From the NCBI GenBank assembly GCA_949752745.1, contig OX457034.1:4167646-4231645 (forward strand): 64,000 nucleotides of DNA, given 5' to 3'. Source of the stretch: Protula sp. h YS-2021. Its lineage: Eukaryota > Annelida > Polychaeta > Sabellida > Serpulidae. Each line of letters begins with the position of its first letter. Position 1 is the first letter of the stretch. The notes beneath the pieces were generated by a model that was not told the DNA's origin, ran no database searches, and worked only from the letters and a program-made list of their open reading frames with translations. A program made the position numbers and the translations under genes. Of the stretch, positions 19,746-46,220 are shown one piece after another.

Positions 19746-21895
19746 TCCAAATTGTACTTTAATTGGTTTGATTTTACTTGAGCACGAGGTTCACGTTGAG
19801 TCAAAACGTTAATCATATTTAGCGGCATGCCTTAAGTTGTCATGCAACAAGAATATGGTGGTGAAATTGCCACATTTATGTGAAAGTATGCGACAGGCCA
19901 TATTTTGTTGTTTGCTTTTGTAGTTGTTGAGTTAACAGTGATATGTAAGGAACACGTAAGAACTCGACACAAAACGAGAATTGTCACAAATCGACATAAA
20001 CCTTACAGTAGAAGTCACAAAACGGAAATTGTCACAACTCGGAGTCGACATAAACTGCACGGTAGAGGTCGTCCCCTTTTCTACACTGAACAATTCTGAG
20101 TTGTTCTTCGAAGTTTAGTTTCTGAAATTGATTGTGTGAGGAATCGAGCCATTGCACACCCGAGCTGTTGTAATTTCGAAAATATATATATTTATTAATG
20201 CGTTTTATAATTGCAATTAATAGATGAATGATTGTGGGATATGGTATTTGGGTCTATGGAAGTTATCAAAAATCACCGAAATTTAGTTTTGATTTGAATT
20301 GCTGTTATTAATCCCATGGCCAAAAAAAGACTGGCATTTAATCGTGAATAGCAGTGAAGAAGAAAAAATGCCCTGAAATTCTAAGTTTTGCATTTAGATT
20401 CCGTAAAATTGAATTTAGAGTGTCCTTAGTGCTTCGCGAATGCTGTAAAATCAGACTGAAGTTTCCAAATGGGCATGTTAAATTTTTAAGGGACTCTTGA
20501 TATAATGACAGTAGCTATAACGCGCCTATAACGCGTCTTTCTAAATGCTGTGTCGAGTGTCTCTGATGTCGATTGTGGTGTGTAAAAAAAGCTTGTATCG
20601 ATTTCTGCCGCCAACACGTGTATTTTTGTCACAATGTTCACAGCATGACAGTGTTTGTGCCGGGATTTCTGCCGAGTAAAAGTGACGCAGACAAATTAAC
20701 TTACTCTGTTTTGTTACATAGCAACTTCCTGTACGCAACACCAACATTTATCAGTTTTATCAGTGTTACGTTCGCTTATCCCTTCAGCGTTTCATGTGAC
20801 TATTACCAGCGAGGCTGTATACGCAGATAGAGAACCGTATCAGTGCACTGCTTGTTTCAGTGCTCTGATACGATAAGCAAGTTTGTTTTTCATTAAAAGA
20901 CTTTGTCAGATTTTGTGACATCTGATTTGTGGAATTTCAGTGATTCTGCTTTAAAAATCGCAGTCTTTTATCCTGATCTTGATATTTTGCATCTTGTAAA
21001 CAATGATGTTTTGTTTTGAAAAAAAAAACATACTTTTCATAAATGATTAACTTCGGTTGTTGTTGTTGTTGAAGTGTCGAATTGTGGTATGTTTATTCAG
21101 TTGGGATGTCAGGTAACTAGAGGTTCGATATATGCACGTAATTTGAATTTGGACTAGGAGGGTTTGTGGGGGGGGGGGGGGGGGGGGTCAACTCGAGCTA
21201 TCAGAGGTAACATAGCAGGCGAAAAGGCAGGCTATCAAGGTCAGTGTCTGTGGCCGTGTTCATAAAAGTTAACTGATTCCGTGAAGTGCTGCGTTGCCAA
21301 TCAAACATCCGAAAGTAAATGGATAAATTAACCCTGTTCATTAAACAAAAATCCACTTAAATTATTAGCGTGCTGCAGTTCGATCAACCGATTCGCGCTT
21401 CTAGGAGTAAGTAGTGTTAACTGCACAGTTAACTTTGTGGAGTAGTGTTGACTGCACAGTTAACTTTTGTGAATACGAGGATCTGACTGCTTAAGGACGT
21501 CACATATATGGAGGGCGGACTTCGGCGCTCGATGCCCCGTCGTTAGCGGCGTGTGTCGGTTTGTTTTTGAACGTTAACTGTATGTAATATGGCTGTAAGA
21601 AAGCAAGTAATCAAAGTACTTTGTTGTTAACAAGAACATCAAAGTACCGGTACTTTGTTGTTAATAAGTAACAAGTACATCAAAAACAAGCGATTTGTAA
21701 AAATTACGGAAGCTACTGTTATTTGTATACTATATCAGTTCTTTTTCTCTGCCAAGAAGTGTTTCAAAAAATGTTACGTCGTCAAATGGAAATGCTTTTA
21801 AGCGAAAGCCATGAATTTTGTCATAACGAGGCTCGTGAAGACTGTACCTATTCACCTTCTGTCTCTGTACAAAGTTACGGTACATCTCACAGTAC
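19746..21895. other. No gene recognised
   Basis: Mostly AT-rich sequence. Small features: two copies of GTGGTGTGTA/GTGGTATGT-type motif (about 20573 and 21085), a 25-bp G-run (about 21171-21187), and a palindrome GTTAACTGCACAGTTAAC at about 21416 that recurs with one change at about 21449. Frames at 20573-20830 and 21723-22041 match nothing known. Confidence 0.45.
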
Positions 21896-21899
21896 CGTG

Positions 21900-23610
21900 G
21901 CCATGTGTTAGGGTGAGTGAGCTGACCCACGTATTTTCCGCTGCTGGTGTCACGGGGGAGTGGTGGGCAGTGCACCTCAGTGAGTACCGTGGCTGTTATG
22001 ATGAGTGAGCTGACCCACGTCATTTCCGCTGCTGGTGTCACGGGGGAGTGGTGGGCAGTGCACCTCAGTGAGTACCGTGGCTGTTATGATGAGTGAGCTG
22101 ACCCACGTCATTTCCGCTGCTGGTGTCACGGGGGAGTGGTGGGCAGTGCACCTCAGTGAGTACCGTGGCTGTTATGATGAGTGAGCTGACCCACGTCATT
22201 TCCGCTGCTGGTGTCACGGGGGAGTGGTGGGCAGTGTACCTCAGTGAGTACCGTGGCTGTGTGTTAGGATGAGTGAGCTGGTCTGGCCCATTTCAGGTGC
22301 TGGTGTCACGGGGGAGTGGTGGGCAGTGTACCTCAGTGAGTACCGTGGCTGTGTGTTAGGATGAGTGAGCTGGTCTGGCCCATTTCAGGTGCTGGTGTCA
22401 CGGGGGAGTGGTGGGCAGTGCACCTCAGTGAGTACCGTGGCTGTGTGTTAGGATGAGTGAGCTGGTCTGGCCCATTTCAGGTGCTGGTGTCACGGGGGAG
22501 TGGTGGGCAGTGTACCTCAGTGAGTACCGTGGCTGTGTGTTAGGATGAGTGAGCTGGTCTGGCCCATTTCAGGTGCTGGTGTCACGGGGGAGTGGTGGGC
22601 AGTGCACCTCAGTGAGTACCGTGGCTGTGTGTTAGGATGAGTGAGCTGGTCTGGCCCATTTCAGGTGCTGGTGTCACGGGGGGAGTGGTGGGCAGTGCAC
22701 CTCAGTGAGTACCGTGACTGTGTGTTAGGATGAGTGAGCTGGTCTGGCCCATTTCAGGTGCTGGTGTCACGGGGGAGTGGTGGGCAGTGTACCTCAGTGA
22801 GTACCGTGGCTGTGTGTTAGGATGAGTGAGCTGGTCTGGCCCATTTCAGGTGCTGGTGTCACGGGGGAGTGGTGGGCAGTGCACCTCAGTGAGTACCGTG
22901 GCTGTGTGTTAGGATGAGTGAGCTGGTCTGGCCCATTTCAGGTGCTGGTGTCACGGGGGAGTGGTTGGCAGTGTACCTCAGTGAGTACCGTGGCTGTGTG
23001 TTAGGATGAGTGAGCTGGTCTGGCCCATTTCAGGTGCTGGTGTCACGGGGGAGTGGTGGGCAGTGCACCTCAGTGAGTACCGTGGCTGTGTGTTAGGATG
23101 AGTGAGCTGGTCTGGCCCATTTCAGGTGCTGGTGTCACGGGGGGAGTGGTGGGCAGTGCACCTCAGTGAGTACCGTGACTGTGTGTTAGGATGAGTGAGC
23201 TGGTCTGGCCCATTTCAGGTGCTGGTGCCACGGGGGAGTGGTGGGCAGTGCACCTCAGTGAGTACCGTGGCTGTGTGTTAGGATGAGTGAGCTGGTCTGG
23301 CCAATTTCAGGTGCTCGTGTCACGGGGGGAGTGGTGGGCAGTGCACCTCAGTGAGTACCGTGGCTGTTATGATGAGTGAGCTGACCCACGTCATTTCCAC
23401 TGCTGGTGTCACGGGGGAGTGGTGGGCAGTGCACCTCAGTGAGTACCGTGGCTGTGTGTTAGGATGAGTGAGCTGGTCTGGCCCATTTCAGGTGCTCGTG
23501 TCACGGGGGAGTGGTGGGCAGTGCACCTCAGTGAGTACCGTGGCTGTGTGTTAGGATGAGTGAGCTGGTCTGGCCCATTTCAGGTGCTTGTGTCACGGGG
23601 GAGTATGTTT
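21900..23610. repeat. 91-bp minisatellite, about 19 copies
   Basis: The common unit contains GAGTGAGCTGGTCTGGCCCA, TTTCAGGTGCTGGTGTCACG and ACCTCAGTGAGTACCGTGG. The first four units carry a variant core (GCTGACCCACGTCATTTCC) and that variant reappears once at about 23370, a sign of conversion between copies. Copies are otherwise nearly identical. Each common unit has an acceptor-like CCCATTTCAG and, 39 nt later, a donor-like GTGAGTACC. Confidence 0.9.
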
Positions 23611-30032: not shown

Positions 30033-33000
30033 CTGCCCGAGAGAAGAAAAAAATGAAGTTCTTAACTCTGGGGCAGTAGATTGTTCATGGCGGAGTACGC
30101 GGATACTATACTAGGCCGTGTTAGGCAGGCCACGCGGACACTAGACTGATTATGACAAGGTACATGGACACTAGACTGGCAGGGTACTGGGACAGTACAC
30201 TGTTCATGGCGGAGTACGCGGATACTACACTAGGCCGTGCCAGGCAGGCCACGAGGACACTAGACTGATTATGACAAGGTACATGGACACTAGACTGGCA
30301 GGGTACTGGGACAGTACACTGTTCATGGCGGAGTACGCGGATACTACACTAGGCCGTGCCAGGCAGGCCACGCGGACACTAGACTGATTATGACAAGGTA
30401 CATGGACACTAAACTGGCAGGGTACTGGGACAGTACACTGTTCATGGCGGAGTACGCGGATACTACACTAGGCCGTGCTAGGCAGGCCACGCGGACACTA
30501 GACTGATAATGACAAGGTACATGGACACTAGACTGGCAGGGTACTGGGACAGTACACTGTTCATGACGGAGTACGCGGATACTACACTAGGCCGTGCTAG
30601 GCAGGCCACGCGGACACTAGACTGATTATGACAAGGTACATGGACACTAGACTGGCAGGGTACTGGGACAGTACACTGTTCATGGCGGAGTACGCGGATA
30701 CTACACTAGGCCGTGCAAGGCAGGCCACGCGGACACTAGACTGATTATGACAAGGTACATGGACACTAGATTGGCAGGGTACTGGGACAGTACACTGTTC
30801 ATGACGGAGTACGCGGATACTACACTAGGCCGTGCTAGGCAGGCCACGCGGACACTAGACTGATTATGACAAGGTACATGGACACTAGATTGGCAGGGTA
30901 CTGGGACAGTACACTGTTCATGGCAGAGTACGCGGATACTACACTAGGCCGTGCTAGGCAGGCCACGCGGACACTAGACTGATTATGACAAGGTACATGG
31001 ACACTAGACTGGCAGGGTACTGGGACAGTACACTGTTCATGACGGAGTACGCGGATACTACACTAGGCCGTGCAAGGCAGGCCACGCGGACACTAGACTG
31101 ATTATGACAAGGTACATGGACACTAGACTGGCAGGGTACTGGGACAGTACACTGTTCATGGCGGAGTACGCGGATACTACACTAGGCCGTGCTAGGCAGG
31201 CCACGCGGACACTAGACTGATAATGACAAGGTACATGGACACTAGACTGGCAGGGTACTGGGACAGTACACTGTTCATGACGGAGTACGCGGATACTACA
31301 CTAGGCCGTGCTAGGCAGGCCACGCGGACACTAGACTGATTATGACAAGGTACACGGACACTAGATCGTTCGCAGCAGAATACATGGACACTATACTTTG
31401 CATGACAGGGACCGTTAATGGCAGAGTACGCGGACACTAAGCTATTCATGGTGGAGTATATGGACACTATATTGTGAAACACACGGTGCGCCGACACTAG
31501 ACGGATTATGACAAGGTACACGAACACTGGAATCATTATGACAAGGTACGCGGACACTAGACTGTTCATGACATTTAAATGGACACTTGACTATTCACAG
31601 CAGTGTACGCGGACAGTAGACTGCCAATGGCAGGGTACGCGGACACCAGACTGTGCATGACAGGGTACAAGGGCGCCAGAAGGTACACGGCATTTGATGC
31701 TGACATTAGACTGTTCATGGTAGAATACGTGGATACAAAACGGTGCTTCAGGGTACGCTGACACTAGACTATTCACAGTAGGATACACGAACACTAGACT
31801 GTTCTTGGCAGGATACGGGGACACTGTACATGACGTACACAGCAGGCTACATGAACACTATACCATGATACAGCATGGTACATGGACACTAGACTGTACA
31901 CAGCAGGCTACATGAACACTTTACCATGATACAGCATGGTACATGGACACGAGACTGTACACAGCAGGCTACATGAACACTTTACCATGATACAGCATGG
32001 TACATGGACACTAGACTGTACATGTACAGAATACTACGAATCTGAATACAGACCGGCGCCACAAAGCGCGTTGGGGATCTCGGGACCGGGGCTCCACTGG
32101 GCCGTGTGCGGGTCGAACACCTCCGTGGAGGCCACGCAGTGCTCAGGCAGCAACTCGCGGCGCCATTTCGCGCTCACTTTGGAGTTTCCGCCTGTGAGAA
32201 AACAACCAGAATATTGTGCGTAACAACCCATGTTTCTGCACTGCTTTGTCTTAGGGAAATGCTGCAATCTGATTGGTCGACCCATATCTCAACAAATTTT
32301 CAATGTTCACCGGAACGGAAAAGTCGATAGATATTGCAGTTGTTTGTAATCTTTATAATCAAAGCATATATTGACTGATGAACATATTGTTAACCAGTTG
32401 CGAAAATGTTGACCCAAAGATCAACATTTTCTTACTCGCCAACAACACTTCATGTTGGCTCGATTCATGTCAATATCTACTAAAAGTTGATATTTTCGAT
32501 ATTTTTGAAAGAAAAGACCCTGATGAGTTACTACAAGCAGGTGAGGAATGTTTGTACGGAAAAAGCTACACTCACCTATGACGTAAATCTTATTTTTGAA
32601 GACGACACCACCAGCTAGGGCCCTGGGTGTGGCCATGGCACCGAGCTCCGTCCAGGCATTCTCCTCGGGGTCGTATCTACCACAGAGAATGGCCATCGTT
32701 AGCCGACACTGACATGCTCTGGTCACCGGTAGGGCATGAAGCGAGTGTCAAAGGTCAACACGGACTGATGAGCATGAAGCGAGTGTCAAAGGTCAACACG
32801 GACTGATGAGCATGAACCCAGTAAGCACAGAAAATTTTCCCATGTGGGATACGTATGGTTTTTAATTGGGATTTGCATGGGAAGGTGGGAAAGGGGAAAA
32901 CCCATATTAATCCCGTGGAGAAAGGAGCCATTTCTGGGTGGGAAATGCCTGGGTTTTCCCACCCTGGGAAACCCCCTGTAAAATACACATGAAATATGTA

Positions 33001-35915
33001 TGGGAATGCCCATGTAAATCCCACCCGGGTAAACCCAGGTGGGTCCCAACTGGGAAATGCATGGATTATGCGTGGGAATTCCGACCATGGATTTTACCTC
33101 GATATTTGTCTCATTCCCATGCTAATCCCTGCATGGGATTCACGTGGGAAGGCCAAAAATAAGCCTGGGTTTTACATGGGTTTTACTTGGGTGTGCTTAC
33201 CGGGAAGCGAGTGTCAAAGGTCAACACGGACTGATGAGCATGAAGCGAGTGTCAAAGGTCAACACGGACTGATGAGCATGAAGCGAGTGTCAAAGGTCAA
33301 CACGGACTGATGAGCATGAAGCGAGTGTCAAAGGTTAACACGGACTGATGAGCATGAAGCGAGTGTCAAAGGTCAACACGGACTGATGAGCCAAAACAAC
33401 CCCCTGCTTCGTCGTATTGTCTGTGACGTGTGGGAAATGGCAAACCGGAAGTGCTTGCTGGCCAATCATTCAAGTGTGCACCTAAATCTCATTCAAACAG
33501 GTGCACATGGATGCAAGAAAACCAAGGATTGATTCATTTGGGCGTTTGGGAAAGAAGGAACATTCGCAACAACATGCTCTACGCTTGCAGAAGACAGACC
33601 CAATAATAAACAACACCGAGAAGACTAATTCTCCAATAGGTGACAGTGAGAGAAGAAATGTGCCAAACCTGAAGGCCATATCGGACATGTCGCTGGTTGT
33701 TTCGCCGCCAAAGACGTAGAGCTTGCCTTTGTGACTGACCGCCGTCATGCATCGCAGCGGTCGCGGCATCGGGCACACCTCTGTCCACGCATTCGACTGG
33801 ATGTCGTATTTCTCTACGGACGTCAACAAGTCGGCTTCGCTTTGACCTCCGACCGCGAATAATACACTGGACAGAAAAAATGATCGACGTTTTGCATAAA
33901 TCTTCCAACAGGCAAATTGGTGTTATGGAAAAAAAAACCTTTTGAAAATCAATCCGTATATTTTATTAAATCATTCATAAACCTCAATTAAACATCTTCT
34001 CTGAAATAAATAAATTTTAACTGAACTAAGAATAAGTACAAACATACAATAAGCGAAAGAGAGGGATGGAAATGAGACGCAAGGAGTGAGTATGTAACAG
34101 TATGTAACATTATGTAACATTATGTAACAGTATGTAACAGCATGTAACAGTATGTAACAGTATGTAACAGTATATAACAGCACGTAACAGTTTGTAACAA
34201 ATGTAACACATGTAACAGTATGTAACAGCACGTAACAGTATGTAACAAATGCAACAGCATGTAACAGCACGTAACAGTATGTAACAGCACGTAACAGCAT
34301 GTAACAGTATGTAACAGCATGTAACAGTATGTAACAGCATGTAACAAAATGTAACAATATGTAACAGTATGTATCAGCACGTAAGAGCATGTAACAGAAT
34401 GTAACAGCATGCAGCAGAATGTAACAGCAAGTCTAATGTAAAATGATAAAACCACACGAGCGGGGTTCAATAACCCGAAAACCCCTCCCACACTCTGTAG
34501 CACAGGCAGCCTGAAAGGCGAGCGCGAACAGTGCTCAAGGCTAAGGAAGGGTTCTCCGATCAGTCCAAATGCGAAAGTGGTTTTATTTTTATTTTATGAA
34601 TTTTGGTAGATGCACAGTCTCTCATAAATTATATGTCTTTTTGTGCATTCTCTGCGACGCTTTCTGTGGCGTAAGTTTATGTTGTTATGCCGATGTCAAG
34701 TACACACTTCAGTAGTCAAGTACACACTTTTGGTAGTCAAGTACACACTTTTGGTAGTCAAGTACACACTTTCAGTAGTCAAGTACACACTTTCAGTAGT
34801 CAAGTACACACTTTCAGTAGTCAAATACACACTTTCAGTAGCTGAGTACACACTTTCAGTAGTCAAGTACACACTTTTGGTAGTCAAGTACACACTTTCA
34901 GTAGTCAGGTACACACTTTCAGTAGTCAAGTACACACTTTCAGTAGTCAAGTACACACTTTCAGTAGTCGAGTACACACTTTCAGTAATCAAGTACACAT
35001 TTTCAGTAGTCAAGCACACACTTTCAGTAGTCGCGTACACTTTCAGTAGTCAAGTACACACTTTCAGTAGTGCGCAGCGTGACGTTATCCATACTAGAAT
35101 ACGGCTGTGTGTAACGATCGGGCGCATCTACCAGGCTAAATTCCACTGTTTTCTGAGGGAAAGAAAGGAGGAAGACGGAGCTAGTGACGTCAATAAGAAA
35201 GGCTCACCCGTCGACCATGACTAGCGAGAACTGAGATCGTCCGTGGTGCATTTTGGCCTTCACCTGCCACGAGCCAAAATGCCTGTCATACAGGAAGAGG
35301 TTTGCGGATACTCCCTCAGAAGTGACAGGACCTCGGTAATTGATTTTGCGGATAGCTCCACCAGCTAAAAATATCTGGTTATCACCCGTAATGCAGGCGC
35401 CTACAAAAGAAGCCATTCACTGTGTTGGTGCTCACAGACAAGACATCTTATATATATATATATATGTTACAGAGGATCTGTGTAATTAGGGATTTCATGA
35501 AACCCCTAGGGAATTCGTGTGATGAATAAGCTCATATTGATTATAAAACTATTTTGAAAAATTATCCATTCAGGAAAGCTGTTTAGTGGTTCTTCAAAAC
35601 TGTGTATCCCTTTTCACATCGAAAGGAATTGGAATTTCAAACATTACCATCAAAAATAACTGAATTTGGCGTGAAATGTGACATAAGTTACATAGGATAA
35701 AAAATATCGCTAAATTCAGGTACTGAAGTATCTCATGAATGATAGTTTGGCAATCGAGTGCTTTGAGTATATTAATTCAAAATCTACAATTAATTTCGGT
35801 AAAATACTACATTGCAAACATGAAAATTCTCAATAAAAACATCGAAATTGATTGAGCAAGTCATTACACGAATCCACTAGGGATTTCATGAAATCCCTAA
35901 TTTCACAGATTCCCT

Positions 35916-38900: not shown

Positions 38901-41900
38901 CATTAGTTGCATGAATAAGCCGGCCTCGTTTTCAAATCGCCCGACCAATCACAATCCGTACATCATTTACATCATGCTAAATACGTTCTTGAAAAGCACA
39001 GAACACAGGTCAAAATGGCAATGACCCCCAATGGTCCATCAGTTGTTCTTAAATTGTATTTATATACAGATATATGGCAAGACAAGATCAGGGCTAAGGA
39101 AACTCAACACAATATACCTCACGAAGTCGGAATCTATAACTGCTAAAACTGTAAGCGTCCTGATATCATACACACATTCTGTGTACACATTGTTTTAACC
39201 ACATTAATCATACATCACAATGACGTCTCCTAACCGTGTAGATATTCTAACTGTGTATCCTAAAAGGCATGTGCACTCGTAACAGTTGTAACGGTGAAAT
39301 AACTCCGTACCGGAGCGTTGGCCAGATTAGGTTGCTTATCCCCACCCCCCACCGACCCCGCCCCGCATCTTACCACTGCTTATCCCCCGTCCCCCGTATC
39401 TTACCACTGCTTATCCCCCCTCCCCCGCATCTTACCACTGCTTATCCCCCCACCCTCTCCCCCTCCCCCGTATCTTACCACTGCTTACCCCCCCCCCGCA
39501 TCTTACCACTGTTTATCCCCCCATCCCCCGCATCTTATCACTGTTTATCTCCCCTCCCACGCATCTTACCACTGCTTATCCCCCTCTCCCGCATCTTACG
39601 ACCTCTTATCCCCCCTCCCCCGCATCTTACCACTACTTATCCCCCTCCCCCGCATCTTACCACTACTTATCCCCCTCGCCCGCATCTTGCCACTGCTTAT
39701 CCCCCCTCCCCCGCATCTTGCCACTGCTTATCCCCCCTCTGCCGCATCTTACCACTGCTTATCCCCCGCATCTTACCACTGCTTATCCCCCCTCCCCCGC
39801 ATCCTACCACTGCTTATCCCCCCTCCCCCGCATCCTACCACTGCTTATCCCCCCTCCCCCGCATCCTACCACTGCTTCATATCTCTGCGCATCAAGCTGG
39901 GAAAATTTCGACCAACCGATATGATCCTAAAATAATTATGACTGCCCAAACATTCGAATTCGCAAGTTTTTTTTTCATAACCATTAGAACAAAGGACAGA
40001 CATAGAGGCTTAATAATATATGGGAACTAGTTTTAATGCGAATAAAGAATTTCTATCTCTCGGTCATGTGCCATTCTGCCAGGCCTCGGCGGCGGAAGTC
40101 ACCATCAGGTGCAACAGCAACAGATAAAAAAAAACAAATTGAAGTGGCGGATGGGGGATACTGCCAACGAAAAAAAGGCGAATAAAAAGCTGTGTACCAG
40201 GCATGTAGACACTCTGCGGCAGCTTGCACAAGTGCTTCATCTCGCCAGTTTTCGGTAACAATATCTCCATACTGTTGAACTTGCGCGACGCTTCCTCGTT
40301 GTGCGGATTCGCCATGACAACGACGCCGCGCACACTCTCCATGCCCCGCCGCGGCACGAAATTCAGGTCGATTTCTTCCACTCGATTCTAGAAACACGAA
40401 ATTCACGTCGATTACTTCCACTCAATTCGAGAAACACGAAAATCACGTCGATTTCTTCCACTCGATTCGAGAAACACGAAAACCACGTCGATTTATTCCA
40501 CTCGATTCGAGAAACACGAAAATCACGTCGATTTATTCCACTCGATTCTAGAAACACGAAAATCACGTCGATTTCTTCCACTCGATTCGAGAAACACGAA
40601 AACCACGTCGATTTCTTCCACTCGATTCTAGAAACACGAAATTCACGTCGATTTCTTCCACTCGATTCTAGAAACACGAAAATCACGTCGATTTATTCCA
40701 CTCGATTCTAGAAACACGAAAATCACGTCGATTTCTTCCACTCGATTCTAGAAATACGAAATTCAGGTCGCTTTCTTCCACTCGGTTATAGAAATAAGAA
40801 ATTGATGCCCCCACCCGGCCTTATAAATACGAAATTCAGATCGATTTCTCCCAGCCGGTTCTAGAAAACAGGATTCATTATGCCTGATTGCTCCGGTCTC
40901 AAAAATAATATTGTTTCATCAAGTTAATAATTATTTGTTTTAGCAAGCAGCTTGTAAACAAAAATCTATAAATGTCTGCTTAGCATTTACTGATGAAGTT
41001 GGGTCAATGCTCTTCACCCCAAAGCAAGCAGCAGAAATCTAGTTAACCAATTTTATATACTTGTCACCAATGAAATAAAAATTAATAGCAAACGAAACGG
41101 TTTCACTGGCCAATGTTTACTTTCAGCATGTGACAATACTTGCTTACAGCATATGATTATATTTACTTTAAGCATATGATACTTACTTTAAGCATGTGAC
41201 AATGTTTCCTTTTAGCATATGATAATGCTTACTTTCAGCATGTGACAAATTCTTTTAGCATGTAGTGATTCTTACTTTCAGCATACGACAATACTTACTT
41301 TCAGCATGGGGTAATACTTCCATGTAGTCATACTTACTTTCAACACAGGACAATACTTACTTTCAGCTTGTGGTAATACTTCCATGTAGTGATACTTACT
41401 TTCAGCACAGGACAATACTTACTTTCAGCATGGGGTAACTTCCATGTAGTAATACGTACTTTCAGCACACGACAATACTTATTTTCAGCATAGGGTAATA
41501 CTTCCATGTAGTGATACTTACTTTCAGCACAGGACCATACTTATTTTCAGCATGGGGTAATACTTCCATGTAGTGATACTTACTTTCAGCACACGACAAT
41601 ACTTACTTTCAGCAAGGGGTAATACTTCCATGTAGTGATACTTACTTTCAGCACACGACAATACTTACTTTCAGCAAGGGGTAATACTTCCATGTAGTGA
41701 TACTTACTTTCAGCACACGACAATACTTACTTTCAGCATGGGGTAATACTTCCATGTAGTCATACTTACTTTCAGCATATGGTAATACTTGACTTTGTCG
41801 CGAATCTCGGCCATATACGGATCGCTGCACACAAGAGTGTTGGACTCAATCCAGTCACAAAAGTAGTAACAGCTGATGTTGACAAAGCGCACGTGCCTCA

Positions 41901-44900
41901 TCACTTTGTAGATATTACTCCGCCGCTCCTCAAGGCTGTAGTTCAACCACGACAGACACGCCTCGAATACGATCTAAAAATATAAAACATCTCAAAACAC
42001 ATTTTATTTTTCATTTAAGGTAATTAAATGAAAACTCATTTGAGACAACATAAACTATTTAAATTGCTATTAGATATCCGAGACGCCTTAGGAAATACGT
42101 ATATCAGACCCTCAGAAAGGAGTACGGCCCATTCCGTCCCGCGGTGAAATCGCGTGGTCAATGTGGTGGCTCAGTGAGGTCGTCAGACCCTCAGAAAAGA
42201 GTACGGACCATTCCGTCCCGCGGCGGGATCGCGTGGTCAATGTGGTGGCTCAGTGAGGTCGTCTGACCCTCAGAAAGGAGTATGGACCATTCCGTCCCGC
42301 GGCGGGATCGCGTGGTTAATGTGGTGGCTCAGTGAGGTCGTCAGACCCTCAGAAAGGAGTACGGACCATTCCGTCCCGGGGCGGGATCGCGTGGTCAATG
42401 TGGTGGCTCAGTGAGGTCGTCAGACCCTCAGAAAGGAGTACGGCCCATTCCGTCCCGGGGCGGGATCGCGTGGTCAATGTGGTGGCTCAGTGAGGTCGTC
42501 AGACCCTCAGAAAGGAGTACGGCCCATTCCGTTCAGCGGCGGGATCGCGTGGCCAATGTGGTGGCTCAGTGAGGTCGTCAGACCCTCAGAAAAGAGTACG
42601 GACCATTCCGTCCCGCGGCGGGATCGCGTGGTCAATGTGGTGGCTCAGTGAGGTCGTCAGACCTTCAGAAAGGAGTATGGACCATTCCGTCCCGCGGCGG
42701 GATCGCGTGGTTAATGTGGTGGCTCAGTGAGGTCGTCAGACCCTTAGAAAGGAGTACGGCCCATTCCGTCCCGCGGCGGGATCGCGTGGTCAATGTGGTG
42801 GCTCAGTGAGGTCGTCAGACCCTCAGAAAGGAGTACGGCCCATTCCGTCACGCGGCGGGATCGCGTGGTCAATGTGGTGGCTCAGTGAGGTCGTCAGACC
42901 CTCAGAAAGGAGTATGGACCATTCCGTCCCGCTGCGGGATCGCGTGGTCAATGTGGTGGCTCAGTGAGGTCGTCAGACCCTCAGAAAGGAGTACGGACCA
43001 TTCCGTCACGCGGCGGGATCGCGTGGTCAATGTGGTGGCTCAGTGAGGTCGTCAGACCCTCAGAAAGGAGTACGGCCCATTCCGTCACGCGGCGGGATCG
43101 CATGGTCAATGTGGTGGCTCAGTGAGGTCGTCAGACCCTCAGAAAGGAGTACGGACCATTCCGTCACGCGGCGGGATCGCGTGGTCAATGTGGTGGCTCA
43201 GTGAGGTCGTCAGACCCTCAGAAAGGAGTACGGACCAATCCGTCACGCGGCGGGATCGCGTGGTCAATGTGGTGGCTCAGTGAGGTCGTCAGACCCTCAG
43301 AAAGGAGTATGGACCATTCCGTCACGCGGCGGGATCGCGTGGTCAATGTGGTGGCTCAGTGAGGTCGTCGTCCTGTACCAACTCCACGAGCTCCTCACAC
43401 GGCAGCGCCAGGAACTCATACATTCCCGTCCCCCACCCCCTCCCCAAGCCCCATCTTCCCACATCATACCCCCTCACCCGCCCCCCCCCCCTTCCCACAC
43501 ACACATACACACACACCTGCTCATTGCGCACGCTGAGGTCGTCGTCCTGTACCAACTCCACGAGCTTCTCACACGGTAGCGCCAAAAACTCGTGCTCCAA
43601 ACACAGCACGCCGAACTGCTTGTTGATGATCTGCTTGGCCTGCCAAAACAACAAACAAAACAGCAGACACAGTCAGCCTTATAATGCTCTTCACTGCCCG
43701 TAAACAGCAATGTTAACACTCTTTCTTGAGCTTAAAAATTGCTTTTTGTTCATCAGTCATATTCCACGCAAGATGCTAGACGCTCATATGTACTGTATCA
43801 TTTTCGGGTGGCTGGAAAGGACGCGGTTTCAGATATCTGTGCCTATGACGACAGATAAATGATCCCGTCTCGGAATTGTAATATACTGGCAGTTTCACAT
43901 CTACGGGTACAGCATCCTGCATCGCCATTGATGGCCATGGCCTCCTAACCGCCCCCCCCTCCACCCTCGCCCACAGAACATCCCCCCCCCCCCAAATTCC
44001 AGCGTCTGTTCCACTGCGTCGCACTGATGGTGTTAGCGTGTCGCACTGATGAGCCCTGGCCCCCTACCCCCTCCCCACACCTCCCCTCACCTTCTGTGCT
44101 AGAGTGTCGCACTGATGGGCCGGGCCCCCACCCCCTCCCCACACCTCCCCTCACCTTCTGTGCCAGCGTGTCGCACTGATGGGCCCGGGCCCCCTCCCCA
44201 CACCTCCCCTCACCTTCTGTGCCAGCGTGTCGTACTGATGAATCCGGGCCCCCTACCCCCTCCCCACACCTCCCCTCACCTTCTATGCCAGCGTGTCGCA
44301 CTGATGGGCCCGGGCCCCCTCCCCCTCCCCACACCTCCCCTCACCTTTGTGCCAGCGTGTCGCACTGATGAGCTCGGGCCCACTACTCCCTCCCCACCTG
44401 TGCCAGCGTGTCGCACTGATGGGCCCGGGCCCCCATCCCCTCCCCACACCTCCCCTCACCTTCTGTGCCAGCGTGTCGCACTGATGGGCCCGGGCCCCCT
44501 ACCCCCTCCCCACACCTCCCCTCACCTTCTGTGCCAGCGTGTCGCACTAACGAACCCTCACCCCCTACCCCCTCCCCACACCTCCCCTCACCTTCTGTGC
44601 CAGCGTGTCGCACTGATGAGCCCGGGCCCCCTACCCCCTCCCCACACCTCCCCTCACCTTCTGTGCCAGCGTGTCGCACTAACGAACCCTCACCCCCTAC
44701 CCCCTCCCCACACCTCCCTCACCTTCTGTGCCAGCGTGTCGCACTGATGAGCCCGGGCGAAGAAGTAGATGCCGATACAGTTGGACACAGTCACGTGCTT
44801 GATCATGTAATCCGCACAGCCGCTGCGCAGCGAAATCAACTGGAAAAGGTTAGCCGCAGACAGAAGGTTCTGCACTGTCTCTTCTGTCAGAACCACTTCC

Positions 44901-45864
44901 CCTAAACAAAGCGACACCTGTGCTTCGCCCACGCTCCCGTGTTTCGTTCATTTTCTTGTCCTTTTGGTCCGCAAATATCACTCAAACAATTAGTTTTTTT
45001 TTTTACTTTATTATATGTATTTTTTCTTTTAGTGAACAATGGCCAATAAAGTACATGGTTTTCAAAATTATTCAGAGCAGTTTAATCACTTGAGAGAGGC
45101 GTGTGTGTAACACGTGCCATACGTATTTTTAACACGTGCTTCGCGTACTTGTAACACGTGCAACGCGTGATTTTTAACAAGTGCCATGCGTATATTTTAA
45201 CGTGCCGTGCGTATTTGTCACACGTGCTATGCGTATCCGTCACACGTGCCATGCGTATTTGTCACACATACCATGCGTATTTGTTACACGTGCCATGCGT
45301 ATTTGGCACACGTGCCATGCGTATTTGTCACACGTGCTATGCGTATGTCACACGTGCCATGCGTATTTGTCACATGTGCCATGCGTATTTGTCACACGTG
45401 CTATGCGCATTTCCCACACGTGCCATGCGTATTTGTCACACGTGCCATGCGTATTTGTTACACGTGCCATGCGTATTTGTCACACGTGCTATGCGTATCT
45501 GTCACACGTGCCATGCGTATCTGTCACATGTGCTATTCGTATTTGTCACACGTGCCATGCGTATTTGTTACACGTGCTACGCGTATTTTGGCACACGGGT
45601 GCCGCGCTTTTTTGACCACGCGCCATGCAGCACGTGTTGTTTTAACACCTGTGTATATATAGTCGAGCACGAGGGAGAGCGTTTGCGCGTCCATTTCCTT
45701 CAGTCTGACGCGGCCTTGCTGATTCTCCACCAAGTTATTGTTGAACATCGCCATAAAGTAAGGACTGGAGATGGCCAGGACGTTCTTGTGGCACGGGAAC
45801 TCGGCGCCCCCCGCCATGAGAACCACGTCCGTGAATTCTTTGTTCTCGTAGAGCGCCGCGAAGC
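29830..45864 (-). CDS. Kelch-like (BTB-BACK-kelch) protein, ten exons, start exon missing
   Basis: Predicted substrate adaptor of a Cullin-3 ubiquitin ligase. The BTB domain would bind Cul3 and dimerise, and the kelch propeller would bind substrate. Ten exons A-J join in phase with GT-AG borders into about 581 codons: 45649-45864, 44723-44901, 43517-43639, 41770-41973, 40198-40387, 35208-35400, 33669-33866, 32576-32676, 32054-32191 and 29830-30032. BTB spans exons A-B, BACK B-E and six kelch blades E-J (for example LFAVGG, YVFGG, YVIGG and VMVVGG). Full-length family members have about 570-620 residues, so only the N-terminal start is missing. It should lie above 45.9 kb but was not found. 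Subfamily was not resolved. The introns are dominated by minisatellites. No frameshift or stop was seen in the exons. Confidence 0.9.
30080..32035. repeat. 119/120-bp minisatellite filling intron I-J
   Basis: About 10.8 near-identical units from 30080 to 31370 with GTTCATGGCGGAGTACGCGG, AGGCCGTGCTAGGCAGGCC and TGGCAGGGTACTGGGACAG. Eroded relatives continue to 32035, where the 5' donor of exon I is only about 20 bp away. Array DNA takes up nearly all of the 2021-bp intron. Confidence 0.9.
32054..32191 (-). CDS. KLHL exon I: kelch blade 5
   Basis: Acceptor TTCTCACAG and donor CCG|GTCTGT; 138 bp. It encodes GGNSKVSAKW to PNALCGAG, including the blade core ASTEVFDPHTAQWSPGPEIP. The long insert KWRRELLPEHC lies in the blade loop. 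Confidence 0.9.
32192..32575 (-). other. KLHL intron H-I
   Basis: 384 bp, the only KLHL intron without a minisatellite. Nothing else is recognised in it. Confidence 0.7.
32576..32676 (-). CDS. KLHL exon H: kelch blade 4
   Basis: Acceptor TCTGTGGTAG and donor CATAG|GTGAGT; 101 bp. It encodes RYDPEENAWTELGAMATPRA and then GGVVFKNKIYVIG, a classic kelch blade. Confidence 0.92.
32727..33390. repeat. 38-bp minisatellite in intron G-H, split by a MITE
   Basis: Unit GAAGCGAGTGTCAAAGGTCA followed by ACACGGACTGATGAGCAT. About two and a half units lie at 32727-32816 and about five at 33205-33390. Between them is a 388-bp element, so the array existed before the insertion. Confidence 0.88.
32817..33204. 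mobile_element. 388-bp MITE-like element inside the minisatellite
   Basis: Terminal inverted repeats: CCCAGTAAGCACA at the left and the complement of CCCGGTAAGCACA at the right. The array unit is interrupted exactly, with only AA duplicated at the junction. The inside is composed almost wholly of short CCCA...TGGG inverted words (for example CCCATGTGGGAT and CCCACCCGGG). No coding capacity. Confidence 0.75.
33669..33866 (-). CDS. KLHL exon G: kelch blade 3
   Basis: Acceptor TTCTGTCCAG and donor TTCAG|GTTTGG; 198 bp. It encodes VLFAVGGQSEADLLTSVEKY, then the SNAWTEVCPMPRPL core and GKLYVFGG, the best-conserved blade. Confidence 0.92.
34094..34435. repeat. 10-bp minisatellite in intron F-G
   Basis: The unit GTAACAGTAT varies to GTAACAGCAT and GTAACAGCAC, about 33 copies. 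The two variants are mixed without a clear period. Confidence 0.88.
34697..35078. repeat. 21-bp minisatellite in intron F-G
   Basis: The unit AGTCAAGTACACACTTTCAG is repeated about 18 times with a TTTTGG variant for TTTCAG. The 21-bp period keeps frames open (193 codons on +, 114 on -), giving a heptapeptide repeat that is not a protein. It ends 130 bp from the exon F donor. Confidence 0.9.
35208..35400 (-). CDS. KLHL exon F: kelch blade 2
   Basis: Acceptor CTTTTGTAG and donor GACGG|GTGAGC; 193 bp. It encodes ACITGDNQIFLAGG through FLYDRHFGSWQVKAKMHHGR to FSLVMVDG. Confidence 0.92.
35466..35920. mobile_element. 455-bp MITE with about 75-bp inverted termini
   Basis: The left end starts GTTACAGAGGATCTGTG and AATTAGGGATTTCATGAAA. 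The right end, read on the other strand, starts GTTACAGGGAATCTGTG with the same AATTAGGGATTTCATGAAA. It is bordered by (AT)n on the left and (AC)n(AT)n on the right (35921-35967). The interior has no coding frame of note. Confidence 0.8.
35968..36760 (-). mobile_element. Pogo/Tigger-type transposon remnant, copy 1
   Basis: The left end reads CAGGGGCCCCTCGTTAATTC. An internal minus-strand frame (36157-36456) contains KRKHNDYTMNLKFKVLQQI, the start of a CENP-B-like helix-turn-helix DNA-binding domain of pogo-family transposases. The frame runs out after about 40 residues of similarity, and the catalytic domain is absent. The right end (about 36660-36750) has matching AATTCGTAC words but the outermost terminus is lost. 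Confidence 0.7.
36765..37130. repeat. Tandem of GGTGGTCGCTACAAACAGG units
   Basis: Five to six units of about 55 bp with GTCAGGAAGGTGGTCGCTAC, AAACAGGTTTTACCGTAGCC and a T-run. Single copies recur at 37698-37760 and 52700-52860. ACAGGTTTTACTGTA resembles a pogo/mariner terminal sequence, so this may be an array of transposon ends. Confidence 0.7.
37131..38295. other. KLHL intron E-F, low-complexity part
   Basis: No exon seen. It contains C-runs at about 37624-37640 and 37961-37978 and one GGTTTTATTGCACGT-type repeat copy near 37720. Confidence 0.55.
38300..38850 (+). mobile_element. Dispersed repeat with (ACCG)n and a terminal hairpin
   Basis: Two direct internal copies (about 38335 and 38608) contain AAGAGCTGAAGTCCAGTTGG, GGACGAACCT and GATATCGTGTTAACA. 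It ends CAGACCGACCGACC, then CACAGGTTCTACCTGTGGGG and AATAAATAAATAA. A related copy is at 50175-50412. It probably belongs with the hairpin-led non-autonomous elements of this genome. Confidence 0.65.
38851..39335. other. KLHL intron E-F, unique-looking part
   Basis: No feature recognised. Confidence 0.5.
39340..39885. repeat. About 30-bp C-rich minisatellite in intron E-F
   Basis: The unit is CCCCCGCATCTTACCACTGC followed by TTATCCCCCCT, about 18 copies with C-run length changes. On the transcript strand every unit carries AGTGGTAAGATG, which resembles a 5' splice donor. Confidence 0.88.
40198..40387 (-). CDS. KLHL exon E: end of BACK, kelch blade 1
   Basis: Donor CCTG|GTACAC; 190 bp; joins exon D in phase 0. 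It encodes NRVEEIDLNFVPRRGMESVR, GVVVMANPHNEEASRKF and QSVYMP. The acceptor TTTCTAG and the first roughly 35 bp of the exon are the last copy of the minisatellite at 40380-40790, so the splice acceptor lies inside array DNA. Confidence 0.88.
40370..40790. repeat. 40-bp minisatellite containing the exon E acceptor
   Basis: About ten copies. On the transcript strand the unit reads CGTGTTTCTAGAATCGAGTG then GAAGAAATCGACGTGAATTT, that is, the exon E acceptor and its first coding bases. Copies at about 40541, 40621, 40661, 40701 and 40741 keep TTTCTAG. Copies at about 40421, 40461, 40501 and 40581 have TTTCTCG and have lost the AG. Confidence 0.92.
40800..41110 (-). other. KLHL intron D-E, spacer between two arrays
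   Basis: AT-rich sequence with fading copies of the 40-bp unit at its left edge. Confidence 0.55.
41115..41775. repeat. About 62-bp minisatellite carrying exon D end and donor
   Basis: Read on the transcript strand, units contain TACCCCATGCTGAAAGTAAG and TGTGCTGAAAGTAAGTATCA. The real exon D ends TACCATATGCTGAAA with donor GTAAGTATG. About 17 donor-like CTGAAAGTAAG copies lie at about 41229-41750, two per unit. The part before 41229 is more eroded. Confidence 0.92.
41770..41973 (-). CDS. KLHL exon D: BACK domain
   Basis: Acceptor TTTTTAG and donor CTGAAA|GTAAGTATG; 204 bp, phase 0 at both ends. It encodes IVFEACLSWLNYSLEER, then VMRHVRFVNISCYYF and MAEIRDKVKYYHMLK, typical of the BACK region of KLHL proteins. 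Its last bases and donor are repeated downstream in the 41115-41775 array. Confidence 0.92.
42105..43366. repeat. 79-bp minisatellite in intron C-D, 16 copies
   Basis: The unit contains TCAGACCCTCAGAAAGGAGT, CGCGGCGGGATCGCGTGGTC and GTGGTGGCTCAGTGAGGTCG. Sixteen units of 79 bp fill 1262 bp. On the transcript strand each unit begins GACGACCTCA, ten bases matching the QDDDL coding stretch of exon C, and the array abuts a partial copy of that exon. Confidence 0.93.
43367..43430 (-). pseudogene. Partial duplicate of KLHL exon C
   Basis: About 64 bp match 43541-43604 and encode EFLALPCEELVELVQDDDL with one residue change from exon C. It is not bordered by splice sites and runs directly into the 79-bp array. 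It is an exon fragment captured in the intron. Confidence 0.88.
43517..43639 (-). CDS. KLHL exon C: BACK domain start
   Basis: Acceptor TTTTGGCAG and donor GCAG|GTGTGTGTG; 123 bp, phase 0 at both ends. It encodes AKQIINKQFGVLCLEHEFLA and LPCEKLVELVQDDDLSVRN. The donor runs straight into a (GT)n microsatellite. Confidence 0.92.
43640..44030 (-). other. KLHL intron B-C, unique part
   Basis: A minus-strand frame (43776-44024) overlaps this part but resembles nothing known. It is not called. Confidence 0.5.
44032..44750. repeat. 61-67-bp minisatellite carrying exon B end and donor
   Basis: About eleven copies. On the transcript strand each reads CATCAGTGCGACACGCTGGC then ACAGAAGGTGAGGGGAGGTG: the last 27 coding bases of exon B, its GTGAGG donor and a G-rich intron piece. 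The copy nearest the exon is the real border at 44723. Nearly all duplicate donors are intact; those at about 44342 and 44396 are damaged. Confidence 0.93.
44723..44901 (-). CDS. KLHL exon B: BTB end, start of BACK
   Basis: Acceptor TTGTTTAG and donor CAGAAG|GTGAGG; 179 bp; joins exon A by a phase-1 intron. It encodes EVVLTEETVQNLLSAANLFQ and LRSGCADYMIKH, the Cul3-binding end of BTB, to ARAHQCDTLAQK. The last 27 bases plus donor are multiplied downstream. Confidence 0.93.
44940..45100 (-). other. KLHL intron A-B, unique part
   Basis: AT-rich, nothing recognised. Confidence 0.5.
45105..45600. repeat. 21/22-bp minisatellite in intron A-B
   Basis: The unit is CGTATTTGTCACACGTGCCA plus TG, about 22 copies with TTACACGTG and TTTTTAACACGTG variants. 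On the transcript strand the variant CACGTGTTAAAAATACG resembles the sequence just after the exon A donor (GTGTTAAAACAACACGTG), so it may also have started there. That link is weaker than for the three arrays above. Confidence 0.85.
45649..45864 (-). CDS. KLHL exon A: BTB domain
   Basis: Donor TACACAG|GTGTTA; 216 bp if the acceptor is GACTTCAG at 45865-45866. It encodes FAALYENKEFTDVVLMAGG, FPCHKNVLAISSPYFMAMF and LDYIYTG, core BTB motifs. The frame stays open upstream to about 45919, reading PTNACLTSGF, so the exon may extend further and the acceptor may lie near or inside the 40-bp array. Confidence 0.88.
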
Positions 45865-45902: not shown

Positions 45903-46220
45903 CACAAAAACCTTGACAAAGGCGCACATCGTACAGTTAGGTCACAAAAACCTTAACAAAGGCGCACATCGTACAGTTAGGTCACAAAAACCTTAACAAA
46001 GGCGCACATCGTACAGTTAGGTCACAAAAACCTTGACAAAGGCGCACATCGTACAGTTAGGTCACAAAAACCTTAACAAAGGCGCACATCGTACAGTCAG
46101 GTCACAAAAACCTTGACAAAGGCGCACATCGTACAGTTAGGTCACAAAAACCTTGACAAAGGCGCACATCGTACAGTTAGGTCACAAAAACCTTAACAAA
46201 GGCGCACATCGTACAGTTAG
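45903..46220. repeat. 40-bp minisatellite upstream of the BTB exon, eight copies
   Basis: The unit is CACAAAAACCTTGACAAAGG followed by CGCACATCGTACAGTTAGGT, with only A/G and T/C changes between copies. On the transcript strand each unit has GACCTAACTG, a branch-point-like CTAAC, and the array ends about 40 bp before the proposed exon A acceptor. Confidence 0.9.

Follow-up and report, generated by a model that had tools for sequence, protein, structure and literature searches.

Minisatellites Spanning Exon–Intron Borders in a KLHL Gene of the Tube Worm Protula sp. and in Other Sampled Genes of Its Genome

Introduction

In the genome of the serpulid annelid Protula sp., two introns of one KLHL gene contain tandem repeats whose units run across the exon–intron border, and rows of splice-site copies (decoys) stand beside the exon-proximal splice sites. 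The locus raises the questions of how such arrays come to lie at exon borders, whether borders are hit more often than other intronic points, and what would become of the protein if a decoy were used. The initial annotation of this locus had proposed that tandem duplication repeatedly starts at splice borders and that duplicates are tolerated there. "Window" below means the whole stretch of DNA analysed, 64,000 nucleotides in length.

Border arrays are real and turn up repeatedly among the sampled genes, and their kind is already known from amphioxus. According to the passages available from PMC3087553 and PMC3902484, such repeats, called "mirages", occur in amphioxus Adh3, troponin C, the globins BflGb6 and BflGb9, and PGBD5. 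The arrays are most probably mirage-type minisatellites whose neutral growth is tolerated at borders, a reading to which we give a probability of about 0.7.

The KLHL Gene and Its Exons

The joined frame of five exons (A to E) on the minus strand contains no stop codon and belongs to a KLHL gene with the order BTB-BACK-Kelch; the stop check of the joined frame took in one extra base of exon E. The joined frame matches KLHL3 with an E value of 8.2e-48, and there is no gap over the junction of exons B and C. The exons are 123–216 nt long, and the introns between them measure 747, 1083, 1543 and 1382 nt. The coding parts are as follows:

45649..45864, minus strand: exon A (BTB); open frame and BTB match, with acceptor CTTCAG and donor CAG/GTGTTA
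44723..44901, minus strand: exon B (BTB/BACK); open frame, gap-free KLHL3 alignment over the B–C junction
43517..43639, minus strand: exon C (BACK); open frame
41770..41973, minus strand: exon D (BACK); open frame
40198..40387, minus strand: exon E (BACK-Kelch linker and first part of Kelch); open frame
33764..33874, minus strand: downstream Kelch coding block, probably part of the same KLHL gene; Kelch_1 match, tblastn

Arrays at and near the Exon Borders

Three arrays in the window cross an exon–intron border, and four further features lie in the introns or upstream of exon A:

44035..44758, minus strand: exon B donor array, unit of about 66 bp (TRF, unit lists, self-alignment)
41259..41796, minus strand: exon D donor array, 62-bp double unit with two GCTGAAAGTAAGTAT per unit (TRF, self-alignment)
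40355..40801, minus strand: exon E acceptor array, 40-bp unit (TRF, unit tables, self-alignment)
42104..43369, minus strand: 79-bp array of 16 copies, one end inside the partial exon C copy (TRF; overlooked in the initial annotation)
43358..43420, minus strand: partial exon C copy, intronic (self-alignment 93% over 58 bp; tblastn block)
45099..45597, no strand assigned: 22-bp array within intron A–B, 51 bp away from exon A, no overlap (TRF)
45903..46220, no strand assigned: 40-bp array upstream of exon A at a distance of 38 bp, no overlap (TRF)

The repeat units of the B, D and E arrays each hold both exonic and intronic sequence, and all extra copies are found towards the intron. Self-alignment shows that the exon B unit consists of the final 36 nt of the exon, GTGAGG and the start of the intron. 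Beyond the exon-proximal donor there are 10 further copies, with GGTGAGG in nine and CAGGTGGGG in the remaining one; the array described earlier is thus present, with 10 extra donors in place of about eleven. The exon D array reaches 27 nt into the exon by self-alignment. When up to 4 mismatches are allowed, it holds 16 further copies of the donor within the TRF array (GT in 14, exact AAAGTAAGTAT in 12), or 22 if degenerate copies as far as 41127 are included (GT in 18, exact in 13), in good agreement with the roughly 17 counted before. The exon E unit, again by self-alignment, comprises the acceptor and 33 exonic nt. Ten further copies were found here as previously stated, but the motif TTTCTAG, once ascribed to all of them, is present in five only; four read TTTCTCG and one TTTCTAT, and AG is lost in the three copies closest to the exon. 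In summary, the description of three arrays with differing units crossing exon–intron borders is confirmed by TRF (66, 62 and 40 bp) and by self-alignment. These three arrays share with mirages a border-spanning unit, an intact copy adjacent to the exon, and splice signals in many though not all copies. As for the partial exon C copy, its aligned part ends 17 nt before the exon C donor would be reached.

Arrays with units of at least 10 bp make up 25% of the window. Two long ones, 21891–23604 (92 bp × 19) and 30068–31365 (119 bp × 11), were also reported by TRF and have no tie to the exons examined.

Border Arrays in Other Genes of the Genome

The assembly surveyed comprises 863 Mb in 218 contigs, of which C1–C11 measure 33 to 114 Mb. 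The Kelch sample consisted of 20 loci of 10 kb each, selected among the Kelch_1 matches in a manner favouring spliced genes. It yielded 8 further border arrays, located in 7 of the 20 loci:

Kelch donor border arrays: L011 (46 bp), L012 (52 bp), L013 (110 bp), L018 (33 bp), L019 and L024
Kelch acceptor border arrays: L017 (44 bp) and L018 (44 bp)

The L011 array has up to about 31 copies. At the Kelch exon acceptor of L017, the 44-bp array (L017:4248-4953) has lost AG in all 10 aligned copies, nine of which read GCTT and one GTTT. L019 and L024 are a duplicated pair, 89–91% alike across the longest alignments; the exon end at the border is unchanged between them, and the number of units is unequal. 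In myosin loci, where 30 exon matches were read of 87 listed, there are three border arrays (L079, L084 and L093) and a single border copy (L073). By eye, the arrays of L079 and L084 appear decayed, and the copies in L084 appear to be without the acceptor stretch. In the kinase loci (20 loci, from 21 hits chosen among 133 matches), no array touching the coding match was found.

That the repeat copies were inserted by misassembly is extremely improbable. Among 81 matches, none was a second near-identical copy of the window gene with which its arrays could be compared, a circumstance that leaves some room for an artefact; against it, the copies in the window are diverged (78–95% matches by TRF), and at L084 the array does not differ between two contigs that were assembled separately, C74 and C11, which are 99.2% alike over 1034 bp.

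The segment of the small contig C74 (L094, C74:56700-57950), as a 99.2% alike copy of the C11 myosin region (C11:7266869-7267900), possibly represents the other haplotype. Two myosin exon matches are spaced very differently in these contigs, about 40 kb apart in one and 1.9 kb in the other.

Frequency of Repeats at Borders and at Intronic Points

If duplication were targeted to splice borders, whether by sequence, R-loops or transcription-linked breakage, repeats should be over-represented there. In the Kelch sample, with 96 exons outside the window, repeats were found at 9 of 192 borders, against 8.6 expected from intronic points, where the matching one-sided state occurs at rates of 4.7% and 4.2%. 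The donor side is slightly above expectation (7 observed, 4.5 expected, P 0.17), which would speak for targeting, and the acceptor side is below it (2 against 4.1). The total of nine derives from 8 program hits (5 donor-side and 3 acceptor-side), from which the L010 acceptor was removed because its repeat ends before the AG, and to which L012 and L013 were added by eye; it includes one single distant copy, at L017. A border was required to have 8 exonic nt in the repeat and an intronic point 10 nt on either side, and the intronic rate includes a few points from the myosin loci L090 and L091.

For the window gene itself, 3 of 9 tested borders carry repeats, whereas the rate of repeats within its introns would predict 0.6 (Poisson P 0.023). 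This figure speaks for targeting, but the gene was chosen for its border arrays. The program flagged the partial exon C copy as well, which was left uncounted since its aligned part stops before the donor. A first placement test on 58 arrays gave 3 observed against 2.6 expected, with a cut-off that omitted the L011 array. A first automatic border caller, applied to 53 donors and 53 acceptors, gave 3 donor-side and 0 acceptor-side cases against 1.4 and 1.6 expected; it overlooked the weak donors of L012, L013 and L024 plus two acceptors. Its donors and acceptors were weighted by frequencies, and U1 pairing energies were calculated against the U1 5′ end. The 20 other Kelch loci therefore do not bear out the earlier proposal that duplication preferentially starts at borders, and border-targeted duplication is regarded as unlikely. 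Neutral growth that is tolerated at borders fits better.

Predicted Consequences of Decoy Use

Frame analysis predicts that nearly all decoys would interrupt the protein. All 10 exon B decoys lead to a predicted stop at residue 141, 12 of the 13 exact exon D decoys to one at residue 259, and all 10 exon E copies lead into a stop. The exception is the first exon D decoy (41730), which is in frame and would add 39 nt, that is, 13 residues (VSMTTWKYYPMLK). Since the decoys nearly all run into a stop, only the proximal copy would give the normal protein, the first D decoy excepted, and the earlier suggestion that the spliceosome can use any copy is not supported. The related suggestion that introns can grow in this way while splicing is kept agrees with the data: the added copies sit towards the intron and would lengthen it, with the working splice site left untouched. 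At L018, the decoy donors, if used, would add 11 residues per 33-bp unit. This 33-bp in-frame border array (L018:1747-1962) belongs to a BTB exon and encodes MFTHGVSQIC repeats.

The decoys might also be kept by selection for a function in splicing, as regulated alternative sites, for U1 recruitment or as poison sites. It would be in line with such a function that GGTGAGG persists in 9 of 10 B decoys and GT in 14 of 16 D array copies, and that the reading frame is kept by the first D decoy and by the L018 units. On the other hand, the site is lost in copies at E, L017 and L084, and array turnover keeps copies nearly identical, so that intact sites are no sign of selection. A splicing function of the decoys is accordingly held to be very unlikely.

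Intron Positions and the Question of Intron Birth

The introns of the window gene differ in how far their positions are shared with paralogs. Intron A–B is common to the window gene, L014, L015 and L025, judging by alignment ends, and intron C–D is common to the window gene, L009 (by alignment ends) and L017 (by exon start). The B–C position is uninterrupted in 11 paralogous loci and the D–E position in 2. The introns with border arrays (B–C and D–E) lie at positions unshared with the informative paralogs, and the shared introns (A–B and C–D) are without a border array. A general statement that arrays occur only in unshared introns was not drawn, four introns being too small a number for such a claim, though the pattern would be compatible with a link to intron gain.

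A further explanation sees the arrays as remnants of intron birth, in which tandem duplication within an exon would have made an intron between the two copies, as in the Rogers-type or the globin mirage model. The uninterrupted paralogs at B–C and D–E point this way, and so does the BTB intron of L018, which has a border array and sits where 9 other loci are uninterrupted. The ends of these introns point the other way, as the L018 intron has no copy of the exon end at its acceptor and the B array in the window stops 396 bp short of exon C. The D and E arrays, moreover, have different units, and no border array occurs at A–B or C–D, whose positions are shared and old. Intron birth is therefore considered quite improbable as the origin of the arrays. 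An intron lying between two copies of one exon segment, as the strict Rogers-type form would have it, was found neither at the 3′ end of the L018 intron nor, by eye, in the window, where B–C has a one-sided array and the units of the D and E arrays are unrelated.

Proposed Mechanism of Array Growth

Under neutral growth tolerated at borders, local tandem duplication, which is common in this genome, would occasionally begin on a segment straddling an exon border, presumably through slippage or unequal exchange. The copy adjacent to the exon would keep a working splice site, and the remaining copies would end up intronic. In the intron the array may then expand and contract as minisatellites do, and drift may erode the splice signals of its copies. 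Decay of the decoys is seen where AG is kept in 5 of 10 copies at E and in 0 of 10 at L017; the decoys of B and D are largely intact, so that decay is not general.

The gene would tolerate such arrays because its short exons and long introns let exon definition pick the nearest site across the exon. Near-equal 5′ sites under exon definition are chosen by their closeness across the exon, as stated in passages of PMC9225289. Exon definition is thus the likely reason for the tolerance, with the choice of splice site deduced from the gene structure.

Comparison with Known Systems

The closest known system is that of the amphioxus mirages. In the parts of the sources available, these are likewise border-spanning tandem repeats, affect both 5′ and 3′ sites, and can occupy more than one border per gene, as in PGBD5; their units range from 10 to 160 bp, AG or GT is present in many but not all copies, and the authentic copy is the one adjacent to the exon. 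The PGBD5 repeats described in the available passages of PMC3902484 sit at splice borders of two exons, 60-bp ones at exon 3 and 108-bp ones at exon 4. The view that several affected introns in one gene were undescribed is thus contradicted by these two border repeats. The present arrays differ from the amphioxus mirages in the annelid host and in the genes concerned (KLHL and myosin), and also in copy number, with about 31 copies at L011 against the 3 or 6 given for amphioxus globin BflGb6 in the text available.

Three other systems are partly similar, as far as the passages of the respective papers go. Intron gain in Drosophila through tandem duplication of AGGT exon segments (PMC2891723) shares the involvement of exon sequence and splice motifs; there, a duplication within an exon yields a new intron, whereas the present arrays occupy an intron edge and demonstrate no gain. 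In human genes of segmental duplications (PMC2812944), border minisatellites also change gene structure, but half of those repeats are in coding sequence and transcripts are altered, while the extra copies here are predicted to be intronic. The metallothionein genes of earthworms (PMC12783039), likewise annelid, have large minisatellites in the first intron, and a crossing of the border is not stated in the passages available. No report of border minisatellites in annelids was found in the available text of open-licence PMC papers, which is weak evidence of absence.

With the present arrays, a peculiarity reported from a few genes of lancelets is found in several genes of an animal far removed from them. 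The arrays also provide natural test cases for the choice of the spliceosome among many nearly identical sites and for harmless intron growth. Beyond this, it is conceivable, though doubtful, that introns of this annelid lineage grow by mirages throughout the genome, a mode that would have arisen independently of amphioxus, with many genes carrying at least 10 near-identical competing sites, and that some in-frame units, such as the D decoy (13 residues) and the L018 units (11 residues per 33 bp), occasionally enter the protein as new coding segments.

Additional Observation on the Assembly

Contig C218 (21,318 bp) contains the mitochondrial cox1, cox2 and nad genes as identified by reading, and these lie on one strand across the 7 kb read. 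Among 120 listed of 8000 matches to its cox1, the named records that score best, at 67%, belong to the serpulid tube worms Hydroides elegans and Ficopomatus enigmaticus, and the remaining named ones lie near 59–62%, so that cox1 places the host with serpulid-like annelids. One-strand coding of all protein genes is known from a serpulid mitogenome, as reported in passages of PMC12853217.
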